From Gemmobacter fulvus (GTDB lineage: Bacteria; Pseudomonadota; Alphaproteobacteria; Rhodobacterales; Rhodobacteraceae): a stretch of 64,000 bases of DNA. The translations under genes were made by a program, and so were the position numbers. This document shows, one piece after another, positions 35,039-63,973 of this stretch (position 1 is its first letter; every line of letters starts with the position of its first letter). The notes below the pieces were generated by a model that worked only from the letters and a program-made list of their open reading frames with translations, was not told the DNA's origin and made no database searches. Location: contig NZ_CP076361.1 in assembly GCF_018798885.1 (NCBI RefSeq), positions 2,261,501 through 2,325,500 of the forward strand. Direction: 5' to 3'.

Positions 35039-35977
35039 ATGCTGAGGGCTAAAGGGATTGCTTTGCTTGTGCTGGCTGGGGGTGCGGCGGCAGGCTGGGC
35101 GTTGCTTACCCCGCCCGCAAGGCTCAGCCCGGCCGAACTTGCAGCGCATTATGCCACGCCCTTGCCAAAGCCCGACACCCCGCTCGCGGTCTATCATCTG
35201 GGCCACAGTCTGGTGGGGCGCGACATGCCTGCGATGCTGGCGCAGCTGATGGGCGAGGGGCACCGCCATGCCAGCCAGTTGGGCTGGGGGGCCTCGCTCG
35301 ATCAACACTGGCGCGGCGATGTGCCGGGCTTTGCCGAAGAAAACGCGCATCCCGCCTATCGCCCGGCGCATGAGGCGATTGGCGGTGGGGCCTATGATGC
35401 CGTGGTGCTGACCGAAATGGTGGAATTGCGCGATGCCATCCAGCACCATGACAGCGCCCGCGCGCTGGCCGATTGGGCGCGGCTGGCCCGGCAGGCGCGG
35501 GGTGATGTGCGGCTCTATCTTTATGAAACCTGGCACCGGCTGGATGATCCCTCGGGGTGGCTGGCACGGCTGGCGCAGGATCGCGCGGCGCTGTGGGAGG
35601 CCGAGTTGCTGCGCCCCGCAATGGCGCGGCAAGGCGTGGGCACCATTCATGTGATCCCGGCGGGGCAGGTTCTGGCGGCGCTGGTCACGCGGATCGAGGC
35701 GGGCGAGGTGCCGGGCCTGACCCGGCGCGAGGATCTGTTCACCCGCGATGCGCAGGGCGCGCCCGACATGATCCACCTGAATGATCTGGGCGCCTATGTG
35801 GTGGCGCTGACCCATTACGCGGTCTTGTCGGGCCGCCCGCCGCTGGGTCTGCCCCATACGTTGCAGCGGGCCGATGGCAGCCCGGCCACGCCACCCACGC
35901 CCGCCGCCGCGCGCGTGATGCAGGAGGTGGTCTGGCAGGTGGTCAGCCGCTATGCTGCGACAGGTATCGCTGGCTGA
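35039..35977 (+). CDS. SGNH-hydrolase-like exported protein
   Basis: A 312-residue protein with an N-terminal hydrophobic segment (residues 5-23, signal or anchor). A likely SGNH esterase fold is suggested by YHLGHSLVGRDMP with Ser57 and by DMIHLND with Asp243 and His246, which gives the DxxH pair. The middle contains LYLYETWHRLDD, which also appears in the next protein. SGNH enzymes deacylate or transfer acyl groups on sugars and lipids. The two tandem genes have the same motif spacing, so they are probably paralogues. Position beside glycosyltransferase genes suggests a polysaccharide target. Function is not established. Confidence 0.7.
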   Translation: MLRAKGIALLVLAGGAAAGWALLTPPARLSPAELAAHYATPLPKPDTPLAVYHLGHSLVGRDMPAMLAQLMGEGHRHASQLGWGASLDQHWRGDVPGFAEENAHPAYRPAHEAIGGGAYDAVVLTEMVELRDAIQHHDSARALADWARLARQARGDVRLYLYETWHRLDDPSGWLARLAQDRAALWEAELLRPAMARQGVGTIHVIPAGQVLAALVTRIEAGEVPGLTRREDLFTRDAQGAPDMIHLNDLGAYVVALTHYAVLSGRPPLGLPHTLQRADGSPATPPTPAAARVMQEVVWQVVSRYAATGIAG

Positions 35978-35992
35978 AAGGCACCCCCCCGC

Positions 35993-38443
35993 ATGTCTCT
36001 GCTGTCGCTTCTGGCGGAAATCCTGTTTGTCGGCCACAGCCTTGTCGGCCCCAATCTGCCGCCGCTGATCGAGGCGGGGTTGCAGGCACAGGGCCAGCCC
36101 GAGGCCAGCGTTTCGGCGCAGATCATCAATGGTGCCCCGCTCAGCTATCAATGGGAGCATTCCGCCGAGGCCGAGGGCGTCGATGGCCGGGTGCGGCTGG
36201 CGACAGGGGACGTGACTGCGCTGGTGCTGACCGAGGCGATTCCGCTGGCGGCGCAGGTGCAGTGGAATGACAGCGCGGTGCAGGTGGCGGCCTTTGCCGG
36301 GCTGGCGTGGCGCGCCAATCCGCAGACGCAGGTGTTTGTTTATGAAACATGGCACAGTCTGGCCTCCGGTCCGGGCGCGGTGATCGAAGGGGATCCGGGG
36401 GCGGGCACGCCCTGGATTGACCGGATCGCGGCGGATCTGCCGATGTGGCAAGAGCTTGCGGATGCAGCCTCGGCGACGCGGCCCGCCGGGGCGGCTCCGG
36501 TGCGGCTGATTCCGGCGGGGCAGGCGATGGCGCTGGCGGCCAAGGCCGCACAGGCGGGGGATTTGCCGGGCATTGCCGCGGTGGGCGATCTGTTCCGCGA
36601 CGAGATCCATCCCAATGGCAAGGGGCTGTATCTTGTGGCCATGGTGCATCTGGCAACGATCACCGGAAAATCGCCCGAGGGGCTGCCTGCGAAACTGACG
36701 CGCAAATGGCAAAGCCGCGATTCGGCCCTGTCGCCCGACCTGGCGCTGGCCTTGCAGCGCATCGCCTGGCAGGCCGCCGAGGCGCATCGCCTGCGCGAAG
36801 GCAGCGCGGCGGGGGCTGATGTGCAGCCCATCGTCGCGACAGCCGCGCCCGAGGAACCGCCGCAGGGTTTTGCCCCGATCCGCAACCCGGCGCTGGCGCT
36901 GGGTCTGGCCGGGGTGAATGACTGGTCGGTGCAGCAGCCCTTTCTGGATGTGATGAAAACCGCCCGTCCCTGGACCGGCCATCTGCCCGGACAATGGGGC
37001 GGCATGGATCACGCGGCCCTGGCGGCGGGCGGCTGGCTGGATGCCGATGGCTGGCTGACCGCCCTGCCGCCCGAGGTGACGGGCGTTTCCACCCTGATCC
37101 TGACCGATCTGCCCGCCGATGCGGCGGGTGTGGCGGGCCGTTATCTGGTGCGCTGGCAGGGCCGGGGGGACGTGACGCTGGGCGGGCGGGCGCAGACTGT
37201 GCAATCGGTGCCCGGCGGGCTGATCTTTGATTATACGCCGGGCGAGGGCGCGGTGATCCTGACGATCAACGGGCTGGTGGCGGGCGATCCGCTGCGGGCG
37301 ATCCGCATCGTGCGGCAAGACCGCGAACGCGAGCTTGACGCGGGGGGCCTGTTCAACCCCGATTGGCTTGCGCGCATCCAAGGGGTTTCTGCCATCCGGT
37401 TCATGGATTGGATGATGACGAATGACTCGGTGTTGGCCACGGTGGAGCAAAGCCCGAAACTTGGCGATTACACCTGGGCGCGAAACGGCGTGCCGGTGGA
37501 GGTGATGGTGGCGCTGGCCAATGCGCTGGAGGCCGATCCCTGGTTCACCCTGCCGCATCTGGCCGAGGATGATCTGGTGCGCTTTTACGCCGAAACCGTG
37601 GCGGATCTGCTGAAGCCGGGATTACGCGCGCATGTCGAATATTCCAACGAAGTGTGGAACTGGCAATTCGCGCAGGCCCGCTGGGCCGAAGAGCAGGGCC
37701 GGGCGCGGTGGGGTCAGGATGGCACATGGCTGCAATTCTATGGCTTGCGCGCCGCACAGGTCGCCGCGATCTGGGCCGAGGTGTTCGGGGCCGAGGCCGA
37801 CACCCGGCTGGTGCGGGTGGTGGCCACGCAGACCGGCGTGCCGGGGATCGAGACGCAGATCCTGGACGCACCGCTGGTGGTGGCCGAGGGCCTGCCCGCC
37901 CCGAAAACCGCCTTTGATGCCTATGCCGTCACCGGCTATTTTGCCGCCTTGCTGGGCAGCGAGGCGAAATTGCCGATGGTGAAGGACTGGCTGGCCGCAA
38001 GCGCCAAGGCCGATCCCGCCGCGCCCTATGCACAGGCAGTGACACAGGCCGCCGAAGAGCTGCTGGACGGACGCCATTCCGGCCTGGCCGAAGACACGCT
38101 GCGCGACGTGCTGGACCGGGTTCTGCCGCATCACGCGGCAGTGGCGCGGGCAGAGGGGTTGCGCCTGCTGATGTATGAGGGCGGCAGCCATGTCGTCGGT
38201 TATGGCCCGGTGGTGGATGATGCCGAGGTGACGGCCTTTTTACAGCATCTGAATTACACCGCCGAAATGGGGGCCTTGTATCAGCAGTTGCTGACCGGCT
38301 GGGCGCGCCTGTCCGATGCACCGTTCAATGCCTTTGTCGATGTCTATAGCCCGACCAAATGGGGCAGTTGGGGGGCCTTGCGCCATCTGGGCGATGATAA
38401 CCCGCGCTGGCAGGCGCTGGCGACAGGCTGCGGCACATGCTGA
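35993..38443 (+). CDS. Two-domain SGNH-like plus carbohydrate-active-like protein
   Basis: An 816-residue protein. Residues 8-240 repeat the SGNH-like pattern of the preceding gene: FVGHSLVGPNLP with Ser16, FVYETWHSL, and DEIHPNGKGLY with Asp203 and His206. Residues about 330-810 form a second domain beginning with a beta-rich segment and then containing FMDWMMTND (near 470), DPWFTLPHLAEDD and HVEYSNEVWNW with Glu549. This is reminiscent of a TIM-barrel glycoside hydrolase or a carbohydrate-binding family, but I cannot name it. There is no clear signal peptide; the SGNH domain begins almost at residue 1. It overlaps the following glycosyltransferase by seven bases. Confidence 0.7.
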   Translation: MSLLSLLAEILFVGHSLVGPNLPPLIEAGLQAQGQPEASVSAQIINGAPLSYQWEHSAEAEGVDGRVRLATGDVTALVLTEAIPLAAQVQWNDSAVQVAAFAGLAWRANPQTQVFVYETWHSLASGPGAVIEGDPGAGTPWIDRIAADLPMWQELADAASATRPAGAAPVRLIPAGQAMALAAKAAQAGDLPGIAAVGDLFRDEIHPNGKGLYLVAMVHLATITGKSPEGLPAKLTRKWQSRDSALSPDLALALQRIAWQAAEAHRLREGSAAGADVQPIVATAAPEEPPQGFAPIRNPALALGLAGVNDWSVQQPFLDVMKTARPWTGHLPGQWGGMDHAALAAGGWLDADGWLTALPPEVTGVSTLILTDLPADAAGVAGRYLVRWQGRGDVTLGGRAQTVQSVPGGLIFDYTPGEGAVILTINGLVAGDPLRAIRIVRQDRERELDAGGLFNPDWLARIQGVSAIRFMDWMMTNDSVLATVEQSPKLGDYTWARNGVPVEVMVALANALEADPWFTLPHLAEDDLVRFYAETVADLLKPGLRAHVEYSNEVWNWQFAQARWAEEQGRARWGQDGTWLQFYGLRAAQVAAIWAEVFGAEADTRLVRVVATQTGVPGIETQILDAPLVVAEGLPAPKTAFDAYAVTGYFAALLGSEAKLPMVKDWLAASAKADPAAPYAQAVTQAAEELLDGRHSGLAEDTLRDVLDRVLPHHAAVARAEGLRLLMYEGGSHVVGYGPVVDDAEVTAFLQHLNYTAEMGALYQQLLTGWARLSDAPFNAFVDVYSPTKWGSWGALRHLGDDNPRWQALATGCGTC

Positions 38444-39261
38444 GCGTGATCATTCCCGCGTCGAACGAAGCCGCCTATATCGGGGCCTGTCTCGCGGCGC
38501 TGTTCCAGTCAGACCCCGTGCCGGGGGGCGCCGAGGCGGTGGTGGTGGCGAATGGCTGCAGCGATGCGACGGCAGAAGTGGCGCGCGGCTTTGCCGATCA
38601 TGCGGCGGCGGCGGGCTGGGCGCTGGTGGTGCTGGATCTGCCGCAGGGCGGCAAGCCCAATGCGCTGAACGCGGGCGACGCAGTAGCGCGCGGCGAGATG
38701 CGCGCCTATCTCGATGCAGATGTGGTGGTCTCGGCCCCGGTGATGGCGCAGCTTGTGGCGGCGCTGGCCGGGGATGCGCCACGTTATGCCGGGGGCACGC
38801 CAGAGATTCCGGTAGCACAGAGCCGGGTAACGCGGGCCTATGCGCGGTTCTGGCAGCGCCTGCCCTTTGCGCAAAGCGTGGCACCGGGCTTTGGCCTGTT
38901 TGCGGTCAATGCGGCGGGGCGGGCACGCTGGGGCGTGTTTCCGGCCATCATCTCGGACGATACCTTTGTGCGGTTGCAGTTTGCCCCCGCCGAACGGGTG
39001 CAGGTGGCCGCATCCTATCTCTGGCCGATGATCGAAGGGTTTGCCGCATTGGTGCGGGTGCGGCGGCGGCAGGATGCCGGGGTGGCCGAGATTGCCGCGC
39101 GCTGGCCCGGCCTGCTGGCGCGGGAAGGCAAAGCCCGGCTCGGCATGGCGCGGCTGGCGGCGCTTGCGCTGCGCGACCCGGCGGGCTTTGCCTGCTATGC
39201 GGCAGTCTCTGTCGCGGTCAAGGCGCGGCGCGGCGGGGCGGTCTGGACGCGCGGGCGCTGA
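38437..39261 (+). CDS. Family 2 glycosyltransferase
   Basis: A 274-residue GT-A fold transferase. It opens MLSVIIPASNEAAYIGACLAAL; VVVANGCSDATAE is the nucleotide-binding strand, and DADVVVSAP (near residue 90) carries the DxD-type metal site. The C-terminal LRDPAGFACYAAVSVAVKARRGG could be amphipathic. It follows the SGNH fusion gene with a seven-base overlap, so the esterase-like protein and this transferase are co-expressed. It converges on the next gene with only seven bases between stops. Confidence 0.88.
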   Translation: MLSVIIPASNEAAYIGACLAALFQSDPVPGGAEAVVVANGCSDATAEVARGFADHAAAAGWALVVLDLPQGGKPNALNAGDAVARGEMRAYLDADVVVSAPVMAQLVAALAGDAPRYAGGTPEIPVAQSRVTRAYARFWQRLPFAQSVAPGFGLFAVNAAGRARWGVFPAIISDDTFVRLQFAPAERVQVAASYLWPMIEGFAALVRVRRRQDAGVAEIAARWPGLLAREGKARLGMARLAALALRDPAGFACYAAVSVAVKARRGGAVWTRGR

Positions 39262-39268
39262 CGGTTCT

Positions 39269-40081
39269 TCAGGCCGAGGCCGTCAGGTCCATCCAGCCGC
39301 AGCGCCGGGCGAAATCTTCGGGATTGGTGTCTGCCCCCACTGCCATGCCCTGCCGGAAGGCCGCAGACTTGCGGGCCTGCCACAGATCCCGGCGCAGATG
39401 CAGGCCAGAGCGGCTGATCTTGGTGATCGGGGTGCGCAGGGGCAGGGCGGTGGCCCACTTGCGCTGCATCGCCTGATAGCAGGCCACATAATCCGGGCCA
39501 AGCGCGCCATGATACCTGTCATTGTGGATGCAGGGCAGCGCGCCCGCATAGGCCGCCCGCCCCGCCGCGCGGGCCTGCGCGACAATATCGGTGCCATACA
39601 TGTGCCAGCCCGGCAGCCCCTCGTCAAAGCGCAGCCCCGAGGCGCGGCGCAGGATGATCACCATTTCATCGAAGCTTTGCACCGGAAGCGGTGCCATCGG
39701 CACCCGCCCCACGATCATGCCCAGCGAGGAGGACCAGACCGGCCCGATATGCGCGCCATCCAGCCCGACGCCAAAGGCCCCGAACAAGGCCCAGTCGGGA
39801 TCCTGAGCCGTCAGCGCGGCCAGACGCGCGGCCAAAAGCCGGTCCCAGCCCTGCGGAAAATACACATCCTGATGGGCAAAGACGATGATCGGGGCCGTGG
39901 TCGCGTCCAGCGCCCGGTTATAGGCGATGGCAGCAGAGGGCGCATTCCATTCCACATGCAGCGGCACCCCCGCCTGCACCATGGGTGAACGGGCGAGGTT
40001 GTTGGCCAGAATCTCCTGCGCATTGCAGGCGGCGGCAAGAACCATGTCGGGCAGGGCGGCGGGATCAGGCATCAGCGGCAT
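39269..40081 (-). CDS. Glycosyltransferase-like protein
   Basis: A 270-residue protein resembling GT-A fold transferases. YNRALDATTAPIIVFAHQDVYFPQGWDRLL at about residues 54-83 places HQD where a DxD metal site would be. GWHMYGTDIVAQARAAGRAAY is the acceptor-side motif seen in small GT2-like proteins. The N-terminal 35 residues lack the usual first strand, so it could be a divergent member. It overlaps the end of the upstream transferase gene by 17 bases on the same strand and is probably co-transcribed with it. Confidence 0.72.
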   Translation of the reverse strand: MPLMPDPAALPDMVLAAACNAQEILANNLARSPMVQAGVPLHVEWNAPSAAIAYNRALDATTAPIIVFAHQDVYFPQGWDRLLAARLAALTAQDPDWALFGAFGVGLDGAHIGPVWSSSLGMIVGRVPMAPLPVQSFDEMVIILRRASGLRFDEGLPGWHMYGTDIVAQARAAGRAAYAGALPCIHNDRYHGALGPDYVACYQAMQRKWATALPLRTPITKISRSGLHLRRDLWQARKSAAFRQGMAVGADTNPEDFARRCGWMDLTASA

Positions 40082-41264
40082 TTCGGATCAGAAGGGCAAG
40101 TTTGGTGGCTTCGCGGTCGATGTCGTGGCGGGCGAACACGCGCTGCCGGGCGGTCTGCCCCATGGCGGTCAGCCGGGGCAAGGGGGTTTCGGCCAGCGCA
40201 TCAATCGCATCGGCCAGTGCGAGCGCATCGCCCGCCGGCACCAGCCAGCCGGTTTCGGGCACGACCAGCTCTGGCAGGCCCGCGATGGCGGTGGCGATCA
40301 CCGGGCGGGCGGCGGCCATGGCCTCCATCACCACCATGGGCAGACCTTCGGCGAAAGACGGCAGGATCAGCGCCTGCGCCGCTGCCAGCTCTTCGCGCAC
40401 CCGCGCCTCGGGCAACCAGCCGGTCAGCGTGACATGACGGCGCAAGGTATAGGTTTCGATCAGGGCCTCGATCTCGCCGCGCAGAGGGCCATCGCCTACC
40501 AGCGTCAGATGCAGCCCCGGATGCTGGCGCACCGCCTGCCCCAGTGCCTCGATCAGCAGCGGAAAGCCCTTCTGTTCGGAAAACCGCCCGATGGCCACCA
40601 GACGCAGCTTGGCCGGAAGCGGGGCGGGATCGGCAAAGCGCCAGGGCTCGATCCCGCAATGCACCACCTTCAGGCGCGGCCAGTCCGCCACATCGGACCA
40701 GCGGCACAGCTGGCTGCGGCCATAGGACGAAATCGCCACGCTGAAGGCCGCATGATGGATCTTTTCGGCCAGCGACAGCGCCTGGGGCGCATCGAATTCT
40801 TCGGGCCCGTGCAAGGTGAAGGAATAGCGTGGCCCGCCCAACTGATGACACAACAGCGCGACCGTGGCGGGGTTGGTGCCGAAATGCGCGTGCAGATGGC
40901 GGATGCCAAGACTGTCGCAGCGCGCCGCCACATGGGCTGCCTCGGCCAGATAGACCAGATGGCGCGCGCGTGCGCCCGCCCGTGCGCCCAGCCGCAGCGC
41001 CGTGGCCGTGGCGCGCAGGGCGGCCAGCGGGTGACGCAGCACCCAGCCCAGGGCCGACCCGGCAAGCGCCAGCTTTCCCGCCTCCAGCACATGTTCGGTG
41101 CGCTGATCCTCGGCCTCATCCTCGGGGTCGGACAGGGTGGCGCGATCTGACCGCATGGCAAAGCGGTGCACGGAAAAGCCCACACGCTCCAGCGCCTGAA
41201 CCTCGCGCCGGATGAAGGTATGCGAGGCCCGTGGGTAGGTATTGACGAGATAGGCAATCTTCAC
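40065..41264 (-). CDS. Family 4 glycosyltransferase (GT-B)
   Basis: A 399-residue GT-B transferase. The start is GTG 41264 (KIAYLVNTYPRASHTFIRREVQAL); the frame continues upstream to 42686 but only as a shadow of the flippase gene. GIRHLHAHFGTNPATVA is the acceptor-side domain, LRLVAIGRFSEQKGFPLLIEAL begins the donor domain, and the E-x7-E-type motif is in FAEGLPMVVMEAMAAARPV. Such enzymes add a hexose to a lipid-linked oligosaccharide at the cytoplasmic face. It is divergent from the flippase gene with 111 bases between them. Confidence 0.9.
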   Translation of the reverse strand: MKIAYLVNTYPRASHTFIRREVQALERVGFSVHRFAMRSDRATLSDPEDEAEDQRTEHVLEAGKLALAGSALGWVLRHPLAALRATATALRLGARAGARARHLVYLAEAAHVAARCDSLGIRHLHAHFGTNPATVALLCHQLGGPRYSFTLHGPEEFDAPQALSLAEKIHHAAFSVAISSYGRSQLCRWSDVADWPRLKVVHCGIEPWRFADPAPLPAKLRLVAIGRFSEQKGFPLLIEALGQAVRQHPGLHLTLVGDGPLRGEIEALIETYTLRRHVTLTGWLPEARVREELAAAQALILPSFAEGLPMVVMEAMAAARPVIATAIAGLPELVVPETGWLVPAGDALALADAIDALAETPLPRLTAMGQTARQRVFARHDIDREATKLALLIRNAADA

Positions 41265-41375: not shown

Positions 41376-42710
41376 ATGGAAATCACGCGCCCCAGCCTGT
41401 TTGCCCGCGCCCTGCGCGGATCGGCCCTGACGGCGGGATCCTATGCCATTACCCAAGGGCTGCGGCTTGGCTCCAACCTGATCCTGACCCGGCTGCTGTT
41501 CCCCGAGGCCTTTGGGCTGATGGCGCTGGTCTCGGTGTTTCTGGTGGGGCTGGCGATGTTTTCCGATATCGGCATCGGCCCGGCCATTTCGCACAGCAAG
41601 CGGGGCGACGAGCCGGGCTTTCTGGATACCGCCTGGACCGTGCAGGTGGCGCGCGGCGGGCTGATGTGGCTGGCCACCTGCGCCATCGCCTGGCCCGCAG
41701 CGCAGTTTTACGAGGCCCCTGATCTGCTGGCGCTGTTGCCGGTGGCGGGGCTGACGCTGCTGATTTCCGGCTTCAATCCGACGCGGATCGACACGGCGAA
41801 CCGGCATCTGCTGCTGGGCCGGGTGACGGCGCTGGATCTGCTGGCGCAGACCATCGGCATTGCGGCTATGGTCGCGCTGGCCTTTGTGCTGCAATCGGTC
41901 TGGGCGCTGGTGATCGGCGCGCTGATCGGGTCGGTGGCCAAGCTGGTGCTGACGCATGTCGGCCTGCCCGGCCACCGCAATCGCCTGCACTGGGAGCCGG
42001 GCGCGGGGGCCGAGCTGATCCATTTCGGCAAATGGATCTTCCTGTCCACCGCCTGCGGCTTTTTGTTGTCGCAGGGCGACAAGGCCATTCTGGGGGCGTT
42101 TCTGCCGCTGGATGCGCTGGGCGTCTATAACATCGGTTATTTTCTGGCGTCGTTTCCGGTGCTGCTGGGCGGGGCGGTGACGGGGCGTATTCTGATCCCG
42201 CTGTACCGGGACCATCCGCCTGCCGCCTCGGTGCAGAACTTCCGGCGGTTGCGGCGCTTGCGGGTTGGATTGACGGCGGGGCTGCTGCTGCTGCTGCTGC
42301 TGCTGGCGCTGTTCGGCGGGGCATTGGTGCATCTTCTGTATGATGCGCGATATGCGCAGGCAGGCGCGATCGTGATGGCGATTGCGCTGGTGCAGATGCC
42401 GCTGGTGATCGGCATGACCTATGATCAGGCGGCGCTGGCGGCGGGGGATTCCCGGCGCTATTTTCTGGTGATGGCGCTGCGGGCGGCCTTGCAGACCTGC
42501 GCGTTCCTGATCGGTGCGGCGCTGGACGGGGTGCAGGGCGCGTTGATCGGGCAGTTCTGCGCGCTGGTTCTGGCGCACCCTCTGATTGTGTGGCTGGCGC
42601 GCCGATACCGCGTATGGGATGCTGCGCATGATCTGGGCTTTGCCATGTTTGCGATTCTGGTCCTGCTGCTTTCGCTCTCCCTCCATCTGGGGGCCTTTGC
42701 CGGTCTTTAG
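41376..42710 (+). CDS. Wzx-like polysaccharide flippase
   Basis: A 444-residue membrane protein of the polysaccharide biosynthesis/MOP superfamily with about twelve hydrophobic segments. The start of the family profile, TAGSYAITQGLRLGSNLILTRLLFPEAFGLMALV, is clear at residues 18-51. It would flip undecaprenyl-linked repeat units to the periplasm for polymerisation. The stop codon lies inside an inverted repeat. The sequence is more like the AmsL/ExoT type than a lipid II flippase. Confidence 0.9.
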   Translation: MEITRPSLFARALRGSALTAGSYAITQGLRLGSNLILTRLLFPEAFGLMALVSVFLVGLAMFSDIGIGPAISHSKRGDEPGFLDTAWTVQVARGGLMWLATCAIAWPAAQFYEAPDLLALLPVAGLTLLISGFNPTRIDTANRHLLLGRVTALDLLAQTIGIAAMVALAFVLQSVWALVIGALIGSVAKLVLTHVGLPGHRNRLHWEPGAGAELIHFGKWIFLSTACGFLLSQGDKAILGAFLPLDALGVYNIGYFLASFPVLLGGAVTGRILIPLYRDHPPAASVQNFRRLRRLRVGLTAGLLLLLLLLALFGGALVHLLYDARYAQAGAIVMAIALVQMPLVIGMTYDQAALAAGDSRRYFLVMALRAALQTCAFLIGAALDGVQGALIGQFCALVLAHPLIVWLARRYRVWDAAHDLGFAMFAILVLLLSLSLHLGAFAGL

Positions 42711-43531: not shown

Positions 43532-43543
43532 GGGTGACTGACA

Positions 43544-44263
43544 ATGACTATCAGCTATCCCCGTTTTCAAACGGGAAGTCCGGTCTCGGTGGAGCGTGTC
43601 GATCTGCTTGTGAATGGCCTGCCAGCCAATGCACAGGCCAAACCCGCACCGCGCAAGGGGGTGTATCGCGCCCTGTTCAAACGTGCCTTTGATGTGACCG
43701 CAATCGTGCTTGCGGCCCCGATCATCGTGCCGATTGTCGCGGCGCTGGCGGTGGCAGTGTCGCGCGATGGTGGCAAGGCGTTCTATACGCAACAGCGGGT
43801 CGGGCTGGGTGGCCGGGCGTTCCGCATGTGGAAGCTGCGCTCCATGGTCAGTGACGCGGACGAGCGGATGGCGCATTACCTTGCGGCCAATCCGGCGGCG
43901 CGGGCGGAATGGGATGAAACGCAGAAGTTGAAGAACGATCCGCGCATCACCCCGTTCGGGCGCTTCCTGCGCAAAAGCTCGCTGGATGAGCTGCCGCAAC
44001 TGTGGAATGTGTTTGTCGGCGACATGAGCCTGGTCGGGCCGCGTCCGATGATGCTGAACCAGCAGGCGCTGTATCCGGGCACGGCCTATTATGCGCTACG
44101 CCCCGGCATCACCGGCTTCTGGCAAACGGCAGGCCGCAACCGCACCAGCTTTGAGGCACGGGCCGAATATGACACCAGCTATGAGGCAGAGCTGTCGCTG
44201 GCGACGGATGTCAAGATTCTGGCGCGCACGGTGAGTGTGGTGGTGAACGGCACCGGCTACTGA
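43544..44263 (+). CDS. ExoY-like undecaprenyl-phosphate sugar-1-phosphate transferase
   Basis: A 239-residue priming glycosyltransferase of the bacterial sugar transferase family. It transfers a sugar-1-phosphate to undecaprenyl phosphate and so starts the repeat unit. The family opens with [26 protein letters not shown] (reentrant membrane helix, about residues 44-69), then [45 protein letters not shown] and [14 protein letters not shown]. It is the short ExoY type without the five-helix N-terminal domain of WcaJ. It is preceded by the regulatory region with a CtrA-type site. Confidence 0.94.
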
Positions 44264-45612: not shown

Positions 45613-45619
45613 CAGATAT

Positions 45620-46495: not shown

Positions 46496-46807
46496 GGTTT
46501 GCCCCATATCCGCGACAGAATAGTCCTGTGTGACCAATATAGTGTGGCTCGACATCGGTGAAACCAGGCTCCTGCATCGCGGTGGCATCACCGCAGGGGT
46601 AATCGTCACACCCGCCGTGCAGCGGGCCCTTGCTCTGGGATTTGCAGGATGCAGGCGCAGGGTTGCGCCCGGATCCAGATTCGCCCAGGCCCCCGCCCAG
46701 TTGACGTTAACTAACAGATTTGGCGGCAAAATGGAAGGGCAGGGGGGCGTGGCATCCGGCGGCGGCACGCGCTAGCATATGGGCAGAAACCCATGGGAGA
46801 GCGGCGC
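46496..46807. other. Divergent intergenic region with a GTTAAC site
   Basis: This 312-base gap separates the BY-kinase and a rightward glycosyltransferase. No gene is visible. It contains GTTAAC at 46706-46711 followed directly by TAAC, which resembles a CtrA half-site pair, and should hold the promoters for both directions. Confidence 0.5.
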
Positions 46808-51155: not shown

Positions 51156-51369
51156 GGCAGCGGCCTTGATCGGGCAGCTATTCCGGTGAAACTGCGGCGA
51201 AAGCCGGGCATTGTTCGCAGTCTGGCGATGGTCGATCCGGTTGCGCCTTCGGGTATCGCTAACCCGCTGTTTACGATACACTCTCATGGAGAGCGGATGA
51301 CTCCTGCCGGGCCATGATCGGGCTTGGCAGGTCTGTGTATGTGTTTGGAACGTGGGGCCGGCGGTGAGC

Positions 51370-54300: not shown

Positions 54301-57300
54301 GGCGAGGGTGGCTTCATCCTCAACCCCGAACGCGGGCGCGAAGGCTATGATGCGCTGATCCGCGATCTGGTGGCGCTGGGGCAGGCCCCGGACCGGATCG
54401 TGCATTTCTGGCTGGTGACGGCGCAGGAGCGATTCCGCCCCGGATCAAGCTTTTTCCACCGCAATATCGAACAGGGTTTTTACGCGCTGATGTTTCTGGC
54501 GCAGGCGATGGCCGAAGAAAACCTGCCACGCCCCATTCATCTGACCACTGTGACCTCGGGTGCGGCGCAGCTGAAGGCCGAAGGGCTGCCCTACCCGGAA
54601 AAGGCCACGATTTCCGGCCCGATCAAGGTGATCCCGCATGAGTTTCCGGGCGTGACCTGCGCGTCGATTGACGTGGCGCTGCCGCCCGTGGCGAAGGGCC
54701 GCCGGGCCAAGCCGGACCTTTCGGTGCTGGCGGGGCAGGTGCTGGAGGATCTGCTGGCCGAGCCGAAGTCCGCCGCCGTGCTGTGGCGCGGTGAAAAGCG
54801 TTATGAGCGCGGGGTGAGGCCGCTGCGGTTGGCCGAGGCCGGGGCGTTGCGGTTGCCGCAGGGTGCGCCAGTGCTGATCACCGGCGGGTTCGGTGGCATC
54901 GGCCTGACTATGGCCGAACGGCTGATCCGCGATTGCGGGGCCAGGATCCTGCTGATTGCCCGCAGCGATCTGCCTGCGCGCGATCACTGGGCGCGGCATC
55001 TGGCCAGCCATGATGCCGCTGATCCGGTCAGCCGCCGTATTCTGGCGGTGCAGCGGCTGGAGGCTTTGGGCGGCACCGTTCAAGTCGCGCGCGCCGATGT
55101 CTGCAATGCGCAGGACATGCGCGCGGCAATTGCCGGGGCCGAGGCGGAGTTCGGGCCGTTCAAGGCGGTGATCCATGCGGCGGGCATCGTGGATGACGGG
55201 CCGCTCTTGACCAAGACACCCGCCGCCGTGGAGGAGGTCTTTGCCCCGAAACTGCATGGCACGCAGGTTCTGGACGGGCTGTTCCCCGATGGCACGCTCG
55301 ATCTGATGGTGGTCTTCGCCTCGACCTCGACCATCACCGGGCCTGCCGGGCAGATCGACTATGTGGCGGCGAATGACTATCTCAATGCCTATGCACAGGC
55401 GCGCAAAGGCGGTCGCACCCGGGTTCTGGCGTTGAACTGGGGCATCTGGGCCGGGGTCGGGATGGCGGCCGAGGCTTTGGCGGATCGGCTGGGCACCCGC
55501 CCTGCCGCGCCGCGTCTGCCACTGTCGCGCCCGATGCTGGACGAGGCCGGGTTTGACCGCGCGGGCCACCGCCTGTTCACCACGCGGCTCAGCACCGCGC
55601 GCTGGGTTCTGGATGGCCACCGCACCAAGGATGGCACCGCCCTGATCCCCGGCACCGGCTATCTGGAGCTTGCCGCTGAAGCCGCCGCCGAAGAGGGGCT
55701 GGGGGCTTTCGAGCTGCGCGACCTGATGTTCTTCCGGCCCCTGACCGTGCCCGATGACGCCCCGCGCGACATGCGGCTGCGCCTGACCCGCAGCGACGAA
55801 GGCTTTGGCTTCGAGGTGCGCTCGGCGGTGGATCACCGGGGCCGCACCGGATTTGCGCTGAATGCGCAGGGACGGCTGCTGCCCTTGCGCCGCCCGCCCG
55901 GGCGGCTGGATCTGGTTGCCATCGCCGCCCGCTGTGCAGCACCTGTGGAAGATCCGCGCGGCATCCGGTCGCCGCAAGAGGAGCATCTGAATTTCGGGCC
56001 GCGCTGGCGCGTGCTGAACCGGATGGCGCTGGGCGCGGGCGAAGGTCTGGCAATGCTGACGCTGCCGCTGTCGGCGCAGACCGATCTGACGCAGGGCTGG
56101 CTCATGCACCCCGCGCTGATGGATCTGGCGACGGGCTGGGCCATGGGGCTGATCGACGGCTATCAGCCCGCGTATCTGTGGGTGCCGGTCAGCTATGGCT
56201 GCCTGCGCGCCCATGCCCCCTTGCCCGCCCGTATCCACAGCTGGGTGCGCAATGCGGCGCGCAACCGCGGCGAAGGCCCGGTGGCGGTGTTCGACATCAC
56301 GCTGACCGACGAGACGGGCGCCGTGCTGATCGAGGTCGAGGGCTTTACCATCCGCAAGCTGGACGGGGCCTTTGCGCAGAAACCACCCGAAGCGCAGGAT
56401 CTGGAATTTGACGATGCCGAGGCGGCGCGGCCTGCGTCAAAGCAGGAGGAGCGGCTGTTGCACAATCTGGGGCAGGGTATCCGCGCCGAGGACGGGGCCG
56501 AGGCCTTTGTGCGGGCGCTGGCCACCGGGCAGTCGCAGGTCATCGTCTCGTCGCTGGATCTGCCTGCGCTGATCCGGCAGGCCGATACGGTCGAAGTGGC
56601 GCGCCCCGAAGGCCAGACCTTTGCCCGCCCCGATCTGGACAGCGACTACATCGCCCCGCGCAATGATCTGGAACGCACGCTGACCGGGTTCTGGCAGGAT
56701 CTGCTGGGCGTCGGGCAGGTGGGGGTGGAGGATGATTTCTTTGCGCTGGGCGGCCATAGCCTGATTGCGGTGCGGCTGTTTGCGATGGTGAAAAAGGCGT
56801 TCCGCGTCGATTTCCCGATTTCGGTGCTGTTCGAGGCGCCGACCATCGCCGCCTGCGCCGCGCTGATCGAAGAGCGGATCGGGCCGGTGGGCGATACGTC
56901 CGGCCCGGTAAAAGCCGAGGCCCCGAAGCGCCGCTTTACCCATCTGGTCGCGATGCACGAACGCGAGGGCGGGCCGAAACAGCCGTTCTTCCTGGTGGCG
57001 GGCATGTTCGGCAATGTGATGAACCTGCGCCATCTGGCGCAGTTGCTGGGCGGCGACCGGCCTTTCTATGGCTTGCAGGCGCGCGGGCTCTATGGCGATG
57101 CCGAACCGCATCGCACCTTGCCCGAGGCCGCGCGGGATTATCTGGCAGAACTGCGTCAGGTGCAGCCGCGCGGCCCCTATCTGCTGGGCGGATTTTCGGG
57201 CGGCGGTCTGACAGCGTGGGAAATGGCCCGCCAACTGGAGGCAGAGGGTGAAGAGGTGGCGCTTCTGGTGCTGCTCGATACGCCCTTGCCGCTGCGCCCG

Positions 57301-57777
57301 CCGTTGTCGGGCCATGACAAGGCGCTGATCAAACTAGCAGAACTGCGCGCGCGCGGTCCCGGCTATCTGGCGGATTGGGCCAAGGCCCGCTGGGCTTGGG
57401 AGATGGAAAAGCGCCGCCCGAAAGCGGCAACCGACACCAGCCACCAGTTCCACAATGCCGAGATCGAGGCCGCCTTCCGCGCGGCGCTGCCGCTCTATGC
57501 GCTGCCGCTGCGCAAGGGGCCGACTGCGCTGTTCCGCCCGCCGCTGGACCGCAAATGGCAGGTGTCCAACGGGCAATGGGTCAGCGCGGCAAAGGAATAT
57601 GTTTTTGCCGACAATGATCTGACCCGGTTCGCCCCGGCGCTGACGGTGATCGAGGTGCCGGGCGACCATGACAGCATGGTGCTGGAGCCGAATGTGCGGG
57701 TTCTGGCCGCGCGGCTGCGCGACGTGATTGCCGAGGCCGAGGCGGCGGCAGATCCTCTGGCCGAGGCCGCCGAATGA
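51370..57777 (+). CDS. Type I polyketide synthase, KS-AT-KR-DH-ACP-TE
   Basis: About 2,135 residues from ATG 51370 (GTG 51352 and 51364 are alternatives). Order of domains and catalytic residues: ketosynthase 12-440 with Cys187 in TACSTS and His in ECHGTGT and NIGHLD; acyltransferase about 545-850 with Ser636 in GHSMGE; ketoreductase with GGFGGIG near 1171, VDD and Tyr1331; dehydratase with His1417 and Asp1585; acyl carrier with Ser1797 in GGHSL; thioesterase with Ser1943 in GFSGGG. The ketoreductase precedes the dehydratase, the reverse of the usual order, and no enoylreductase is seen. One elongation, reduction and dehydration cycle, possibly iterative, would give an unsaturated acyl chain released by the thioesterase. 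The stop overlaps the next ATG (ATGA). Confidence 0.92.
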   Translation: MTEQDTGMSGIAETDIAIVGMAAHLPGAASIVAYWENLRAGLESICQLTEAELLANGESPAKLRHRNYVPAAAVLDKFDHFDAEFFGFSPKEAAILDPQHRQFLEVAWEAMENAAHTPEGFKGAIGVYAGCGMGSYFYFNLCSNPDLVENTGMFLLRHTGNDKDFLATRVSHIFDLKGPSINVQTACSTSLVAVHYAAQALLNGECDMALAGGVTIELPHARGYVFNEGEILSPDGHCHAFDHRAQGTVFGSGAGCVVLRRAVDAIRDGDHIWAILKGSAVNNDGAAKAGYLAPSVDGQARCVAEAQAMAGVTSDTVDYIECHGTGTFLGDPIEVAALTAAFRESAETVGTCRIGSVKTNIGHLDTAAGVASLIKVALQLHHRELAPSLGYEAPNPAIDFESSPFRVNDRLTAWEAKGHPRRAGVNSLGVGGTNAHAVLEEAPARPASEDSDWPFQPLVLSARSKSALDEASRTLAAHLRAHPEQALADVAYTLKQGRRAFEKRRVLVAESHAQAADLLEGKDPRRVFSHEFLGDAPEVVFMFPGGGAQYAGMARDLYDTEPEFRDWMDRGLAILQPKLDYDIRALWLPEPGAEATANARLKRPSVQLPLIMITEYALAKLYQSWGVQPAALIGHSMGENTAACLAGVMSFEDCIGLVHLRGQLFDTIAPGGMLSVPLDEAALRPRLTGDLDMASVNAPGLCVVSGPDAALLALAGTLAAEGVETQRIAIDIAAHSRMLEPILGRFGAYLRAIALHPPQLPVISNRSGQPLTGAEATSPDYWVQHLRNTVMFQRGMETLRAEAGRVYMEMGPGRALSSLAQANGVAAGQVIPALRHPEQAMPDDQWHIASLARLWACGVAIDWEPIWGDARRNRLPLPGYAFQRKRYFIEPGKPQVVEAEALPMRQEDLAQWGWQPVWRQRPADCDVDLDGDLSEAPHHSWLVFLDDVGLGPATVARLRKAGHSVTTVRAGDTYARDGEGGFILNPERGREGYDALIRDLVALGQAPDRIVHFWLVTAQERFRPGSSFFHRNIEQGFYALMFLAQAMAEENLPRPIHLTTVTSGAAQLKAEGLPYPEKATISGPIKVIPHEFPGVTCASIDVALPPVAKGRRAKPDLSVLAGQVLEDLLAEPKSAAVLWRGEKRYERGVRPLRLAEAGALRLPQGAPVLITGGFGGIGLTMAERLIRDCGARILLIARSDLPARDHWARHLASHDAADPVSRRILAVQRLEALGGTVQVARADVCNAQDMRAAIAGAEAEFGPFKAVIHAAGIVDDGPLLTKTPAAVEEVFAPKLHGTQVLDGLFPDGTLDLMVVFASTSTITGPAGQIDYVAANDYLNAYAQARKGGRTRVLALNWGIWAGVGMAAEALADRLGTRPAAPRLPLSRPMLDEAGFDRAGHRLFTTRLSTARWVLDGHRTKDGTALIPGTGYLELAAEAAAEEGLGAFELRDLMFFRPLTVPDDAPRDMRLRLTRSDEGFGFEVRSAVDHRGRTGFALNAQGRLLPLRRPPGRLDLVAIAARCAAPVEDPRGIRSPQEEHLNFGPRWRVLNRMALGAGEGLAMLTLPLSAQTDLTQGWLMHPALMDLATGWAMGLIDGYQPAYLWVPVSYGCLRAHAPLPARIHSWVRNAARNRGEGPVAVFDITLTDETGAVLIEVEGFTIRKLDGAFAQKPPEAQDLEFDDAEAARPASKQEERLLHNLGQGIRAEDGAEAFVRALATGQSQVIVSSLDLPALIRQADTVEVARPEGQTFARPDLDSDYIAPRNDLERTLTGFWQDLLGVGQVGVEDDFFALGGHSLIAVRLFAMVKKAFRVDFPISVLFEAPTIAACAALIEERIGPVGDTSGPVKAEAPKRRFTHLVAMHEREGGPKQPFFLVAGMFGNVMNLRHLAQLLGGDRPFYGLQARGLYGDAEPHRTLPEAARDYLAELRQVQPRGPYLLGGFSGGGLTAWEMARQLEAEGEEVALLVLLDTPLPLRPPLSGHDKALIKLAELRARGPGYLADWAKARWAWEMEKRRPKAATDTSHQFHNAEIEAAFRAALPLYALPLRKGPTALFRPPLDRKWQVSNGQWVSAAKEYVFADNDLTRFAPALTVIEVPGDHDSMVLEPNVRVLAARLRDVIAEAEAAADPLAEAAE

Positions 57778-58781
57778 TGCCGCAGCTTCTGACCGTGATC
57801 CTGAACTGGCGTACCCCGGCGATGACCCTGCAATCCGCCGAGGCCGCCCTGCGGGAAATGGCGGGCATCCGTGGGGCCATCACCATTGTCGACAATGACT
57901 CGGGCGATGGCAGTTTCGAGACGATGCAGGCCGAAGTGGCGGCGCGGGGCTGGGACCGTGGCCCGGTGCCGGTGCGGGTGCTGCAATCCGGGCGCAATGG
58001 CGGCTTTGGCGCGGGCAACAATTTCGGGATAAAGGCCGGGCTGCCGGGCGGCGCGCGCCCGGATTACGTCTATATCCTCAATTCCGATGCCTTTCCCGAT
58101 CCGGGGGCCATCCGCGCCTTGCTGGATCATCTGGAGCAGCACCCGGCCACCGGCTTTGCCGGCAGCTATATCCATGGGCCGGATGGCGCGCCGCATCGCA
58201 CGGCCTTCCGCTTTCCCTCTGTTGCCAGCGAGTTGGAAGGGGCGGCACGGTTCGGTCCGATTTCACGCGCCTTGCGCAGGCATATCGTTGCCCGCCCGAT
58301 CCCCGAAGAGACGACGCGGGTGGATTGGCTGGCCGGCGCCAGCCTGATGATGCGGCAGGATGTGCTGGACCGGATCGGCGGGTTTGACGAGGTGTTCTTT
58401 CTGTATTTTGAAGAAACCGACCTGTGTCTGCGCGCGGCGCGGGCGGGGTGGCCCACCGATTATGTGCGCCAGTCCGAAGTCACCCATATCGGATCGGTGT
58501 CGACCGGCATGAAAACCTGGTCGCGGATTCCGCGCTTCTGGCTGGACAGTCGCCGCCATTATTTCACCAAGAACCATGGCTATGCCTATGCCGCGCTGGC
58601 CACGCTGGCCCATGTGGCAGGCGGGGTGCTGTGGCGTGCCCGGCTGCTGGTCCAACGCAAGGACAGGGGCGATCCGCCGCATTTTCTGCGGGATCTGATC
58701 GTGCATTCTGTTGCGGGGGCCGGGCGGGCGAAGGCCGCGCCTGCGGTGGACAGCACAGACAACACAAGCCCCGCCGCCTAG
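57774..58781 (+). CDS. Family 2 glycosyltransferase between PKS and NRPS
   Basis: A 335-residue GT2 protein of the rhamnosyltransferase-like group. [16 protein letters not shown] near residue 75, [17 protein letters not shown] near 100 with the metal-site N-S-D, and [37 protein letters not shown] near 185 are diagnostic. It starts in an ATGA overlap with the PKS and ends 37 bases before the NRPS-like gene. Translation coupled to the PKS argues that its product meets the polyketide. The sugar donor is unknown. Confidence 0.9.
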
Positions 58782-58818: not shown

Positions 58819-61800
58819 ATGAACCCGTTTTCCTGTTTCCTGATCGGCAATGAAAGCCTGACCCGCGAATGTGGCGAGATGCTGCTGGCGCGGGGCCATC
58901 ACATCGCGGCGCTGGTCAGCCACAACCCGGATCTGCACGCCTGGGGCCGCGCGCGGGGTCTTGCGGTGATCGAACAGCAGGCCGGGTGGCCGGAGGCCTT
59001 GCCCGGCGGGGTGGATTGGCTGCTGTCGATCGCCAATCTGTCGCTGGTGCCCGAGGCCGCGCTGGCACAGGCGCGGCTGGGCGGGGTGAACTTCCATGAC
59101 GGGCCTTTACCGCGCCATGCGGGGCTGAATGCGCCGGTCTGGGCGCTTCTGGCCGGTGAGGCGCAGCATGGCATCACGTGGCACATGATCACGCCCGGCA
59201 TGGACGAGGGCGATATTCTGGACCAGCGCCTGTTCGACATCCGGCCAGACGATACGGCGCTGACGCTGAACACCCGTTGTTTCGAAGCGGCGATGGCCTC
59301 GTTCCCGGCGGTGATCGAGGCTTTGGCACAGGGCGCGCCGAACCGCCGCGCGCAGGATTTCTGCCTGCGCACGGTGCATGCGCGGGCGGACCGGCCTATC
59401 GCGGCGGGGCGGCTGGATTTCACCGCCTCTGCCACAGATCTGGCCGCTTTGGTGCGCGCGCTGGATCATGGCAGCTACTGGAACCCGCTGACGGCGGCAA
59501 AGATCTGGGATGGCAGCCGCTATGTGCTGGTCGGCGCGGCAGAGGTCGTGGCGGGGCAGGGCGCGCCGGGGCAGATACTGGCGGCGGATGCGGCCACGGT
59601 GACGGTGGCCTGCGGCACCGGGGCGCTGCGGCTGTCGCGGCTGACCTGCCAGAAGGGCTTTGAGGTTGCGCCGACCACGCTGCCCAATCCGCTGCGCTCG
59701 GCCACTGCGGCCGAGGCGGCGGCGCTGACCGAGACGCTGGCCCGCGCCGTGCCCGCCGAACCGCGCCTCCGCCGTGCCCTGCGCGCGCTGGATCCGGCAG
59801 AAGTGCCGGGCACCGGCAGCAGCACCGCCCCGGCGTTCTGGCAAAGCCTGCCGCTGGCACTGCCGTCGCTGGCGCTGACGGCACTGGCGGCAGGGCGGTT
59901 GTCGGGCAAGGGCGCTGCGGATCTTGCCTTTGCGGCGGGCCATGCAACGGCGGGTATCCTGTCGGACTGGGTGCCGCTGCGGGTCAGCGCCGAAGGCGCC
60001 TTGCCCGAAGCGCTGGCCCGCACTGAGGCGGCGCTGGAGCAGGCGCGGGCGCAGCCTGCCTTCCCGCTTGATCTGCTGGCACGGGACCGCAAGCTGTTCG
60101 GGCTGGCCCCACCCGCCATCGGTATCGCGGCGCAGCCGGTTCCGGGCACGGTGCTGACCCTGAATGACACGGCGCTGCATTATGATGCCAGCCGCCTGAG
60201 CATGGATCAGGCGCAGGCCATCGCAGCCCGGCTTGCTGCCTTTGCCGCAGCGGCCACGGGGACGGCGCGGGTGGAAAACCTGCCGATCCTGACCCCGGCA
60301 GAGCTGCATCAGGTGCTTTACGCCCATAACGCCACATCCAAACCCTATGATGCCAATCTTTGTGTGCATCAGGCGTTCGAGGTGCAGGTGACGCGCAGCC
60401 CCGATGCCGTGGCGGTGGTGTTCGAGGCGCAGAGCCTGACCTATGCACAGCTTGACGCCCGCGCCAATCGCGCCGCGCATGTGCTGCGCGACATGGGGGT
60501 GCGCCCCGGCACGCTGGTCGGTCTGCACACCCGGCGCAGCCTTGATCTGCTGATTGGCGCGCTGGCGATCCAGAAGGCGGGCGGGGCCTATGTGCCGATG
60601 GATCCGGCCTATCCGGCCGAACGCACCGCCTTGTTCATCGAGGACAGCGGCTGCCCGGTGATCGTGACGCAAAGCGCGCTGGTGCCTGCGCTGCCCGCGC
60701 ATCAGGCGCAGGTGCTGTGCCTGGATACCGACGGGCGGCTGGGGCTGGCTCCCGACAGCGCACCCGACAGCGGCGTCACCGCGGCGGATCTGGCCTATAT
60801 GATCTACACCTCCGGCTCCACCGGGCGGCCCAAGGGCGTGATGGTGGAACATCGCAATGTGGCGAATTTCTTTGCGGGCATGGACGACCGCATCGACCAT
60901 GCCACGGGATCTGTCTGGCTGGCGGTCACATCGCTGTCCTTCGACATTTCGGTGCTGGAGCTGTTCTGGACGCTGGCGCGCGGCTTCAAACTGGTGATGA
61001 GTTCGGATGAAAACCGGGCGCTGGTGTCGAATGGCAGCATCGGCTCGGCCCAGCCGATGGAATTTTCGCTGTATTACTGGGGCAATGACGATGGCGTCGG
61101 CCCCAAGAAATACGAACTGCTGCTGGAGGGCGCGAAATTTGCCGACAGCCATGGGTTTTGTGCGGTCTGGACGCCCGAGCGGCACTTTCATGCCTTTGGC
61201 GGCCCCTACCCGAACCCTTCGGTGACAGGGGCGGCGGTGGCGGCGGTTACGCGGAATCTTGCCGTTCGGGCGGGATCCTGCGTCTTGCCCTTGCATCACC
61301 CGGCCCGGGTGGCCGAAGATTGGGCGGTGATTGATAATCTGACAAATGGCCGTGCCGGCCTTGCCATCGCCTCAGGCTGGCAGCCCGATGACTTTGTGCT
61401 GCGGCCCGAAAACACCCCGCCCGACAACCGCGCCGCGATGTTCACCGGGATCGACCAGCTGCGCCGGTTGTGGCGGGGCGAAACGGTGGAGTTCCCGACC
61501 CGGACCGGCACATTCGGCGTGGTGACGCAGCCGCGCCCGGTGTCGAAAGAACTGCCGATCTGGGTGACCACGGCGGGCAATCCCGCCACTTGGCGCGAAG
61601 CGGGCGAGATTGGTGCCAATGTGCTGACCCATCTGTTGGGGCAGACGGTGGCCGAAGTGGGCGACAAGATCCGCATCTATCACGAGGCCCTGCGCAAGGC
61701 GGGCCATGATCCGGCCAAGCATTCCGTCACGCTGATGCTGCACACCTATGTCTGCCGTGACCGCGATCAGGCGCGGCGCGTGGCCGAAGCGCCGATGAAA

Positions 61801-63348
61801 AGTTACCTCGCGGCGGCGGTGGGGCTGGTCAAGCAATATGCCTGGGCCTTCCCGGCGTTCAAGAAACCGCAAGGCGTTGACAACCCGATGGACATCGACC
61901 TGCGCAGCCTGAGCGCCGAGGAAAACGAGGCCATTCTGGATTTCGCCTTCCAGCGCTATTTCGAAGAGTCCGGCCTATTCGGCACGGTCGAGGATGCGCT
62001 GGCACGGGTGGAAAGCCTGAAACGTATCGGCGTCACCGAAGTGGCCTGCCTGATTGATTACGGCATCGCGCCGGATGTGGTGATGGAGGGGCTCTATCCG
62101 CTGGCCGAGGTGTTGCGCCGCGCCAATGCCGGGGCGGGGCCTGCGGCGGATGATTTCTCGATCGCGGCGCAGATCCTGCGCCATGGGGTGACGCATCTGC
62201 AATGCACCCCGTCGATGGCGCGCATGATCATGCTGAACGACGAGGCGCAAGGGGCGCTTGCCTCGGTCAAGACCCTGATGCTGGGCGGCGAGGCCCTGCC
62301 GGGGGCGTTTGTGTCGGATCTGCGCAAGGTCACGCAGGCGCGGATTGAAAACATGTATGGTCCGACCGAAACGACGATCTGGTCCACCACCGAAACGGCG
62401 CAGGGCGGCGAGGGTGTGGTGAACATCGGGCGTCCCATCGCCAATACGCAGGTCTATGTGCTGGACGGTGGGCAGCAGCCGGTGCCGCCTGGTGCTGCGG
62501 GCGAATTGTGGATCGGCGGCGATGGCGTGACGCGCGGCTATTGGCAGCGCCCCGATCTGACGGCAGAGCGGTTCCTGCCGGATCCGTTCATCCGTGATGG
62601 CGCCTGCTCCTGGGGCGCACGCATGTATCGCACCGGCGATCTGGTGCGGCTGCGCGGCGATGGCAAGCTCGATTACCTTGGCCGCGCCGATTATCAGGTG
62701 AAGCTGCGCGGCTACCGGATCGAACTGGGCGAGATCGAGGCCGCGCTTGAGGCACAGCCGGGCGTGCAGCAGGCCGTGGTTCTGGCGCGCGAGGACAGCC
62801 CCGGCGATCTGCGGCTGGTCGCCTATATCACCGGCGCGGCGCAAGAGGCCGCGTTGCGCGCGGCGCTGGGTGCGCGTTTGCCCGAGCATATGATCCCGGC
62901 GCATTTCGTGACGCTGGACCACTTTCCGCTGACGCCCAACCGCAAGGTGGATCGCAAGGCGCTGCCTGCGCCACAGGCACAGGCCGCCGTGGCCACCTAT
63001 GCGGCGCCGGAAACCGGGCTGGCGGCGCAGCTGGCGGTGATCTGGCAGCGGGTGCTGGGGGTGCCACGGGTGGGGGCGAAGGACAATTTCTTTGCGCTGG
63101 GTGGCCATTCCCTGTTGGCGGTGCAGGCGCATCGGGAAATCCGCGACACGCTGGGCCTGACCAAACTGTCGATCACCGATATCTTCCGCTTCCCCACACT
63201 GTCGGCCTTGGCCGATCATCTGGACGATGCGCCGAAAGCAGCGGTGGCGGCGGCGGCACCCGCGCCGGGGCTGGCTGATCGTGCGGAAAACCGGGCGGAT
63301 GCAATGGCGCGCCGCCGGGCGCTGCGGGCAGGGCGGCTGGATGCCTGA
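58819..63348 (+). CDS. NRPS-like protein: formyltransferase, partial C, A split by luciferase-like monooxygenase, carrier
   Basis: 1,509 residues from ATG 58819, which has AAGGAG seven bases upstream. Residues 1-290 resemble methionyl-tRNA formyltransferase; the triad Asn91, His93 and Asp129 keeps the 38-residue spacing of the Escherichia coli enzyme. About 330-490 resembles only the C-terminal half of a condensation domain, with no HHxxxDG. The adenylation domain begins near 510 ([11 protein letters not shown] at 663) and is interrupted at about 747-1100 by a luciferase-like FMN monooxygenase of the MupA/Atu3671 type. It resumes to 1400 (YGPTETTIW near 1181, [10 protein letters not shown]). 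The carrier Ser1431 lies in GGHSL. It would activate an amino acid, oxidise it and perhaps N-formylate it. Its stop overlaps the phosphopantetheinyl transferase start. Confidence 0.9.
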
Positions 63349-63973
63349 TCTTGCTGGCCTTGCCGCCTGTGCCCGTGCCCTGCTTCCCCCCGGCACCGGC
63401 ATTGGTGCCACCGATCCGCGCGACCGGCACCCCGCCTTTCCGGGCGAGGATATTGCGGGCGTGCCGCTGCGACTGGCTGAATTCCGTGCCGGGCGGGCCG
63501 CCGCCCGCGCCGCCATGGCTGAGCTCGGCCTGCCGACCTTTGCCGTGCCGGTAAAGGACGACCGTGCGCCGCGCTGGCCTGCCGGGCTGTGCGGCTCGAT
63601 CAGCCATAGCGAGACGCTGTGCCTTGCCGCCGTGGCGGTGCTGTCGCCTTTGCGCGGCATCGGGCTGGATCTGGAAGAAGATGGCCCGCTGGAAGAGGAT
63701 CTGCGCACCGCTATCCTGCGCCCGGAAGAAAGCCATGTCAGCGCCGAAGAGGCGATGCTGATCTTTTCCGCCAAGGAGGCCGCCTACAAGGCGCAATATC
63801 CGATGTCGCTGTGCCTGTTCGGCTTTGATGCGCTGTCGGTCCATCTGGATCACGCCAACCGCAGCTTTACGGCGCGTTTTACCACCGAAATCACCCCTTT
63901 TCCGATGGGATATGTGCTGCATGGCCGCTATGCCCATGTGCAGGACCATATTCTGACGGCGGTGACGCTCTGA
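63341..63973 (+). CDS. 4'-phosphopantetheinyl transferase (EntD/Sfp type)
   Basis: A 210-residue phosphopantetheinyl transferase starting at ATG 63341, overlapping the NRPS stop by eight bases. [16 protein letters not shown] near residue 85, [10 protein letters not shown] near 105 and [13 protein letters not shown] near 145 are the three family motifs with the Asp, Glu and Lys needed for coenzyme A and magnesium. It converts the apo carrier domains of the PKS and NRPS in the same operon (Ser1797 and Ser1431) to holo form. A short hairpin follows at the window edge. Confidence 0.93.

Follow-up and report, generated by a model that had tools for sequence, protein, structure and literature searches.

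Why should a polyketide synthase (PKS) and a nonribosomal peptide synthetase (NRPS) lie within a polysaccharide locus, and do they serve the polymer or make a compound of their own? In the window, by which we mean the whole stretch of 64,000 nucleotides of Gemmobacter fulvus DNA analysed here, positions 35039–63973 hold a Wzx/Wzy-type polysaccharide set followed by a PKS, a glycosyltransferase (GTe), an NRPS and a phosphopantetheinyl transferase (PPTase) (Table 1); genes and domains bore out the sequence-only reading, which had claimed a Wzx/Wzy export set adjoining these four genes. The host genome is 4.68 Mb in size, and the nearest relatives of the PKS/NRPS cassette are found in Gemmobacter species, with NRPS identity of up to 84%. 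Genome mining in Roseibaca has reported NRPS-like/T1PKS hybrids of unknown product in 18 of 37 related species, the Roseibaca hybrid cluster having an NRPS gene of 4,527 nt and a PKS gene of 6,333 nt, and the searched text of that paper makes no mention of polysaccharide genes (PMC10584327). These orphan hybrids and the window cassette come from the same family and have NRPS and PKS genes of similar size; judged by the description in the part of the paper covered and by these sizes, the Roseibaca hybrid is probably of the window cluster type. A search of open-licence PMC texts found no paper linking such hybrids to polysaccharide. Hybrid NRPS–PKS clusters and Wzx/Wzy loci are each already known kinds; the new element would be their functional coupling.

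Table 1. Genes and domains of the locus, with positions in the window
Feature	Position	Strand	Remark
sec1, secreted SGNH-fold protein, putative O-acyl esterase/transferase	35039..35977	+	
sec2, large protein: sec1-like SGNH N-terminal part and C-terminal region of unknown family	35993..38443	+	
GT2 glycosyltransferase (GTa)	38437..39261	+	
Glycosyltransferase-like protein	39269..40081	-	weak match, below cut-off
GT4 glycosyltransferase	40065..41258	-	start approximate
Wzx flippase	41376..42710	+	Polysacc_synt_3
Undecaprenyl-phosphate sugar-1-P priming transferase	43544..44263	+	Bac_transf, E 1e-59
Wzz chain-length determinant	44341..45633	-	
BY-kinase	45620..46768	-	separate protein from Wzz; start approximate
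GT2 glycosyltransferase (GTc)	46793..47764	+	
WecG/TagA/CpsF GT26 glycosyltransferase	47775..48683	-	start approximate
Wzy polymerase/O-antigen-ligase-like membrane protein (candidate)	48598..50157	+	start approximate; WaaL fold match
GT2 glycosyltransferase (GTd)	50148..51155	+	
Type I PKS, single module KS-AT-KR-DH-ACP-TE	51352..57777	+	probable start 51370
KS domain	51409..52542	+	C193, H329, H369
AT domain	52987..53805	+	GHSMG
KR domain	54871..55452	+	
DH domain	55558..56364	+	follows KR; retains H and D, with G at the usual Q/H position
ACP	56677..56868	+	
Thioesterase (TE)	56989..57774	+	S1949, D1976, H2106
GT2 glycosyltransferase (GTe)	57774..58781	+	between PKS and NRPS; 4-bp overlap with PKS
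NRPS-like protein, an initiation module with formyltransferase, linker, A domain (interrupted by monooxygenase) and PCP	58819..63348	+	
Formyltransferase N-terminal domain, matched stretch	59026..59316	+	catalytic N91, H93, D129 of NRPS
Adenylation (A) domain, first part	60376..61017	+	up to a4
MupA/Atu3671-type luciferase-like monooxygenase inside A domain	61063..62112	+	TIGR04020
Adenylation (A) domain, second part	62152..62946	+	code DILQMGMIWK
PCP	63028..63222	+	
Sfp-type PPTase	63341..63973	+	8-bp overlap with NRPS

The sequence-only reading had the last four genes joined by short overlaps, which held for the PKS/GTe junction (ATGA) and the NRPS/PPTase junction and failed for GTe and the NRPS, which are 37 bp apart, with a sequence resembling a ribosome-binding site ahead of the NRPS start. 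Because several polysaccharide genes lie on the minus strand, the same-strand run is limited to 48.6–64.0 kb, into whose start the end of one minus-strand ORF extends. Housekeeping genes follow downstream of 63973, and the locus therefore ends there. A promoter and terminator scan returned nothing above chance. Between the Wzx and priming transferase genes, 833 bp (42711–43543) hold no plausible gene and may be a regulatory region. Directly upstream of sec1, genes for an ECF sigma factor (minus strand), a FAD amine oxidoreductase, an MFS_2 transporter (32473–33726), a DUF3833 protein and an SDR protein occupy 29679–35010.

The polysaccharide part was examined as a member of the Wzx/Wzy class, and the priming transferase, Wzx, the Wzz/BY-kinase pair and several glycosyltransferases were all present. 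The Wzy assignment was put to the test because the window protein has no Pfam match of its own; a close homologue showed a weak Wzy_C match, and the AlphaFold model (pLDDT 80.6) had the O-antigen ligase WaaL as its single significant PDB match. These matches support the Wzy assignment, with polymerase and ligase not told apart by them. An OPX/Wza outer-membrane exporter was absent from the called genes of the locus, and a gene for it is annotated in an Aminobacter relative; it may sit elsewhere in the genome, and its absence from the locus is therefore not disqualifying for the class.

The ten-residue code of the NRPS A domain, which we take to be a glycine pattern, was kept as DILQ(M/L/F/Y)GM(I/V)WK, with one unread residue, in 128 of 128 NRPS homologues, and the formyltransferase N/H/D triad was intact in 126 of the 128. 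The monooxygenase insert (470 bits) has A-domain halves on both sides and lies between a4 and a5, and no C domain was detected in the NRPS. Going by these families, the enzyme would take glycine as its substrate, formylate it and hydroxylate its alpha carbon, and an N-formyl amino-acyl product, as previously proposed, is still the best reading of the formyltransferase, the glycine code and the conserved triad. The best solved-structure match of the NRPS was LgrA, whose initiation module for linear gramicidin (F-A-PCP) likewise places a formyltransferase with the N/H/D triad before the A domain and PCP; unlike LgrA, the window NRPS has a monooxygenase insert and the glycine code in its A domain, a linker of about 190 aa of no known domain, and a PKS as its next partner. 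In the glycine modules of myxothiazol and melithiazol, the monooxygenase is also located between a4 and a5 (PMC10204066) and hydroxylates the glycine alpha carbon (PMC10204066; PMC11342130), while MupA alpha-hydroxylates an ACP-bound substrate in vitro (PMC10952193). The modules MtaG and MelG of these two pathways thus share the MupA-type insert in a glycine A domain with the window NRPS, but they act at the end of their assembly lines, carry C and TE domains and release an amide, whereas the window module stands at the start, with a formyltransferase and without C or TE. A domains with the same insert also occur in other contexts, on plasmids of Streptomyces, Deinococcus, Nostoc and Burkholderia.

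The main catalytic residues of the PKS (KS, AT, KR Ser/Tyr/Asn, DH His/Asp and TE triad) were conserved in 79 of 79 PKSs, and the DH domain had Gly at the usual Q/H site after the catalytic Asp in nearly all PKS homologues. An ER domain is absent from the window PKS. These features bear on the parallel drawn earlier with RkpA and WcbR. Those enzymes belong to capsule-export loci, are described as resembling fatty-acid synthases, and have in common with the window that a type I PKS lies within a polysaccharide locus. RkpA/WcbR-type lipid synthases carry a reductive, fatty-acid-like module set that includes ER; unlike them, the window PKS consists of one KR-DH module that takes its starter from a glycine NRPS, and it is placed in a Wzx/Wzy rather than a kps-type locus. 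The parallel is thus not supported, and a reading as such a lipid synthase was rejected because it does not fit the domain content. The precedent of type I PKSs in capsule loci (PMC3908369) favours the idea, put forward for the RkpA/WcbR capsule synthases, of a product that anchors the polymer as a lipid or primer, but one ER-less, glycine-primed module ending in a TE, with no saturated-long-chain machinery and beside Wzx/Wzy rather than ABC-exported capsule genes, makes such an anchor very unlikely.

The order of the assembly line can be read from relatives. In a sister lineage of about 45% identity, formed by Aliiroseovarius (L164), G571 and G792, the NRPS is directly followed by a protein of about 3080 aa, which in L164 has the order KS-AT-KR-DH-ACP-C-A-PCP-TE, and in G283 a PKS as large as that of the window comes after the NRPS. 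Because of this gene order and domain content, the NRPS is taken as the probable starter and the PKS as the probable extender, with the TE as the release enzyme, an arrangement that fits the protein families; in addition, chains of a single solved NRPS/PKS entry, 8xjz, are matched by the NRPS and by the PKS. Since the window version has no C-A-PCP part, a short product is expected. In L164 (13795–27534), the formyl-Gly NRPS and its partner form a stand-alone two-gene cluster without polysaccharide genes, as they do in G571 and G792; the Aliiroseovarius copy is plasmid-borne, between nos genes and an XrtD exosortase. The same starter NRPS thus occurs without polysaccharide genes, and the chemistry itself therefore needs no polymer.

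This sister lineage lends weight to a rival explanation, in which the PKS and NRPS make a free secreted small molecule, such as a signal, metallophore or antibiotic, and the polysaccharide genes are neighbours through a common lifestyle of biofilm or surface growth. A type I TE would be compatible with hydrolytic release, and related orphan clusters have been taken as bioactive-compound clusters in the part of the Roseibaca paper covered (PMC10584327). However, the locus itself showed no recognisable gene for a receptor or for an exporter dedicated to small molecules, although the MFS_2 gene lies just upstream; this counts against a siderophore or antibiotic cluster.

The distribution of the cassette also speaks against a free product. 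Eighty relatives were fetched, giving with outgroups 84 loci with more than 6 kb of flank; core polysaccharide genes lay beside the cassette in 77 of these, in several arrangements, and gene orders varied widely between genera. The gene-order comparison suggested by the sequence-only reading thus showed a polysaccharide neighbourhood that is kept while its order is rearranged. Among the seven exceptions, G571 and G792 belong to the sister lineage, contigs L038 and L045 end at the PKS, and G597 and L017 have glycosyltransferases and an SGNH protein; the seventh, G559, was rejected as a member, having only a partial NRPS match (47%) in an ordinary multi-NRPS cluster. Relatives without polysaccharide genes, which that reading had named as evidence against it, were accordingly found in the sister clade, whose partner protein has the extra C-A-PCP, and in none with a window-type cassette. 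In Ruegeria, Paracoccus and Aminobacter, copies carried on plasmids also lie inside polysaccharide loci. The Hydrogenophaga copies (L024, L025, L028, L031 and L032) nest within Paracoccaceae, indicating horizontal transfer into this betaproteobacterial genus, and retain sec1 and glycosyltransferase neighbours.

One genome was sampled per genus, for 198 genera of the family; among these, the cassette was found in 73, the window-type Wzy in 75 and sec1-type proteins in 42. Cassette and Wzy were both present in 68 genera, the cassette alone in five (one being the sister lineage), Wzy alone in seven (weaker matches) and neither in 118 (phi 0.87; Fisher p 2e-38, a value that assumes independence of the genera, an assumption that does not hold). 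All 42 genomes with sec1 were cassette-positive, and sec1 was found in 0 of 125 cassette-negative genomes. In 14 Wzy pairs and 17 sec1 pairs, the partners lay on different contigs or at a distance of more than 60 kb, some of these assemblies being fragmented. As controls, the priming transferase of a third polysaccharide locus in the genome gave a background of moderate association (phi 0.37), and the Wzx of another locus was uninformative because it occurred in one of the 198 genera only. Chance or phylogeny as the sole cause of the linkage was rejected in view of the rearranged contexts and the unlinked co-occurrence, in counts made without species-tree correction, and a link of the cassette with polysaccharide that is more than chance was confirmed. 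The earlier view that the cassette belongs functionally with the polysaccharide genes is thus upheld by the conserved neighbourhood, transfer as a package and co-occurrence without linkage. Genome-wide coupling to one Wzy and one secreted SGNH family, even when unlinked, together with the plasmid, Rhizobiales and Hydrogenophaga copies, makes a free secreted molecule an unlikely product.

Regarding sec1, membership of the SGNH class was examined by fold and residues; the SGNH fold, the catalytic Ser and the Asp-x-x-His were present, Ser57, Asp243 and His246 were invariant in the alignment, and several relatives have lipoprotein-like N-termini. The sec1 model (pLDDT 90.5) matched rhamnogalacturonan acetylesterase and the peptidoglycan O-acetyltransferase PatB, with moderate TM-scores of 0.33–0.45 by query length. 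Because this secreted esterase or acyltransferase never occurs without the cassette, the product may be an acyl ester on a glycan, and we infer from the restriction of sec1 to cassette-positive genomes the strongest hint of such a product. In sec2, a region of about 500 aa without any Pfam match is fused to the SGNH-like part, and it is conserved in other such loci.

Considering these results, we propose that the product is a short, N-formylglycine-primed, non-lipid acyl group that is produced for the surface polymer and probably joined to it, and we hold this prediction of product and attachment to be moderately probable. The locus would build and export a Wzx/Wzy-type surface polysaccharide and encode a dedicated line for the polymer's acyl block. 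The PPTase would activate the carrier domains of both NRPS and PKS, the A domain would load glycine onto the PCP, the formyltransferase domain would N-formylate the PCP-bound glycine, and the inserted flavin monooxygenase would hydroxylate its alpha carbon, after which the hydroxyl may be kept or the N–C bond broken to give a glyoxylyl thioester. The chain would then pass from the NRPS to the KS of the PKS, where one malonyl unit would be added, followed by reduction and perhaps dehydration. The TE may release the chain by simple hydrolysis or transfer it. The acyl group would be joined to a sugar, either in the lipid-linked repeat unit or in the polymer, though no enzyme moving it to the sugar was identified in the locus; Wzx would flip and Wzy polymerise the acylated unit, and sec1 and sec2 might act on acyl esters beyond the inner membrane, by transfer, trimming or remodelling. 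The DH without the usual Q/H and the absence of GTe from the cassette in Aminobacter and other outgroups count against this proposal.

GTe bears on a further alternative, that a modified block (for example, a formamido or glyoxylyl-derived one) is incorporated by GTe or another glycosyltransferase in the backbone or at the chain end, rather than as a pendant acyl group. In favour of this, the GTe gene overlaps that of the PKS, and among the 79 complete cassettes in the first set of relatives, 77 have it between PKS and NRPS. However, the cassettes of Aminobacter, G421, G531 and G283 do not include GTe, and GT2 enzymes normally use nucleotide sugars; we consider such incorporation highly improbable. 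Returning to pendant acylation, it is possible, on a more tentative footing, that over one-third of the sampled genera have surface polysaccharides with a pendant NRPS–PKS acyl group, derived from N-formyl (alpha-hydroxy) glycine and malonate and added and remodelled by dedicated SGNH enzymes.

Orphan NRPS/T1PKS hybrids have been reported as common in this family and interpreted as sources of drug-like natural products. The genetics here indicate that the cassette serves a surface polymer, which would shift the product search from culture extracts to the polysaccharide. If so, assembly-line chemistry would join the known bacterial ways of decorating glycans, and a secreted enzyme family without a Pfam assignment would gain a testable role. 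Elsewhere in the window, hydantoinase and molybdopterin CO-dehydrogenase-like genes at 3586–18672 bear no relation to this finding.
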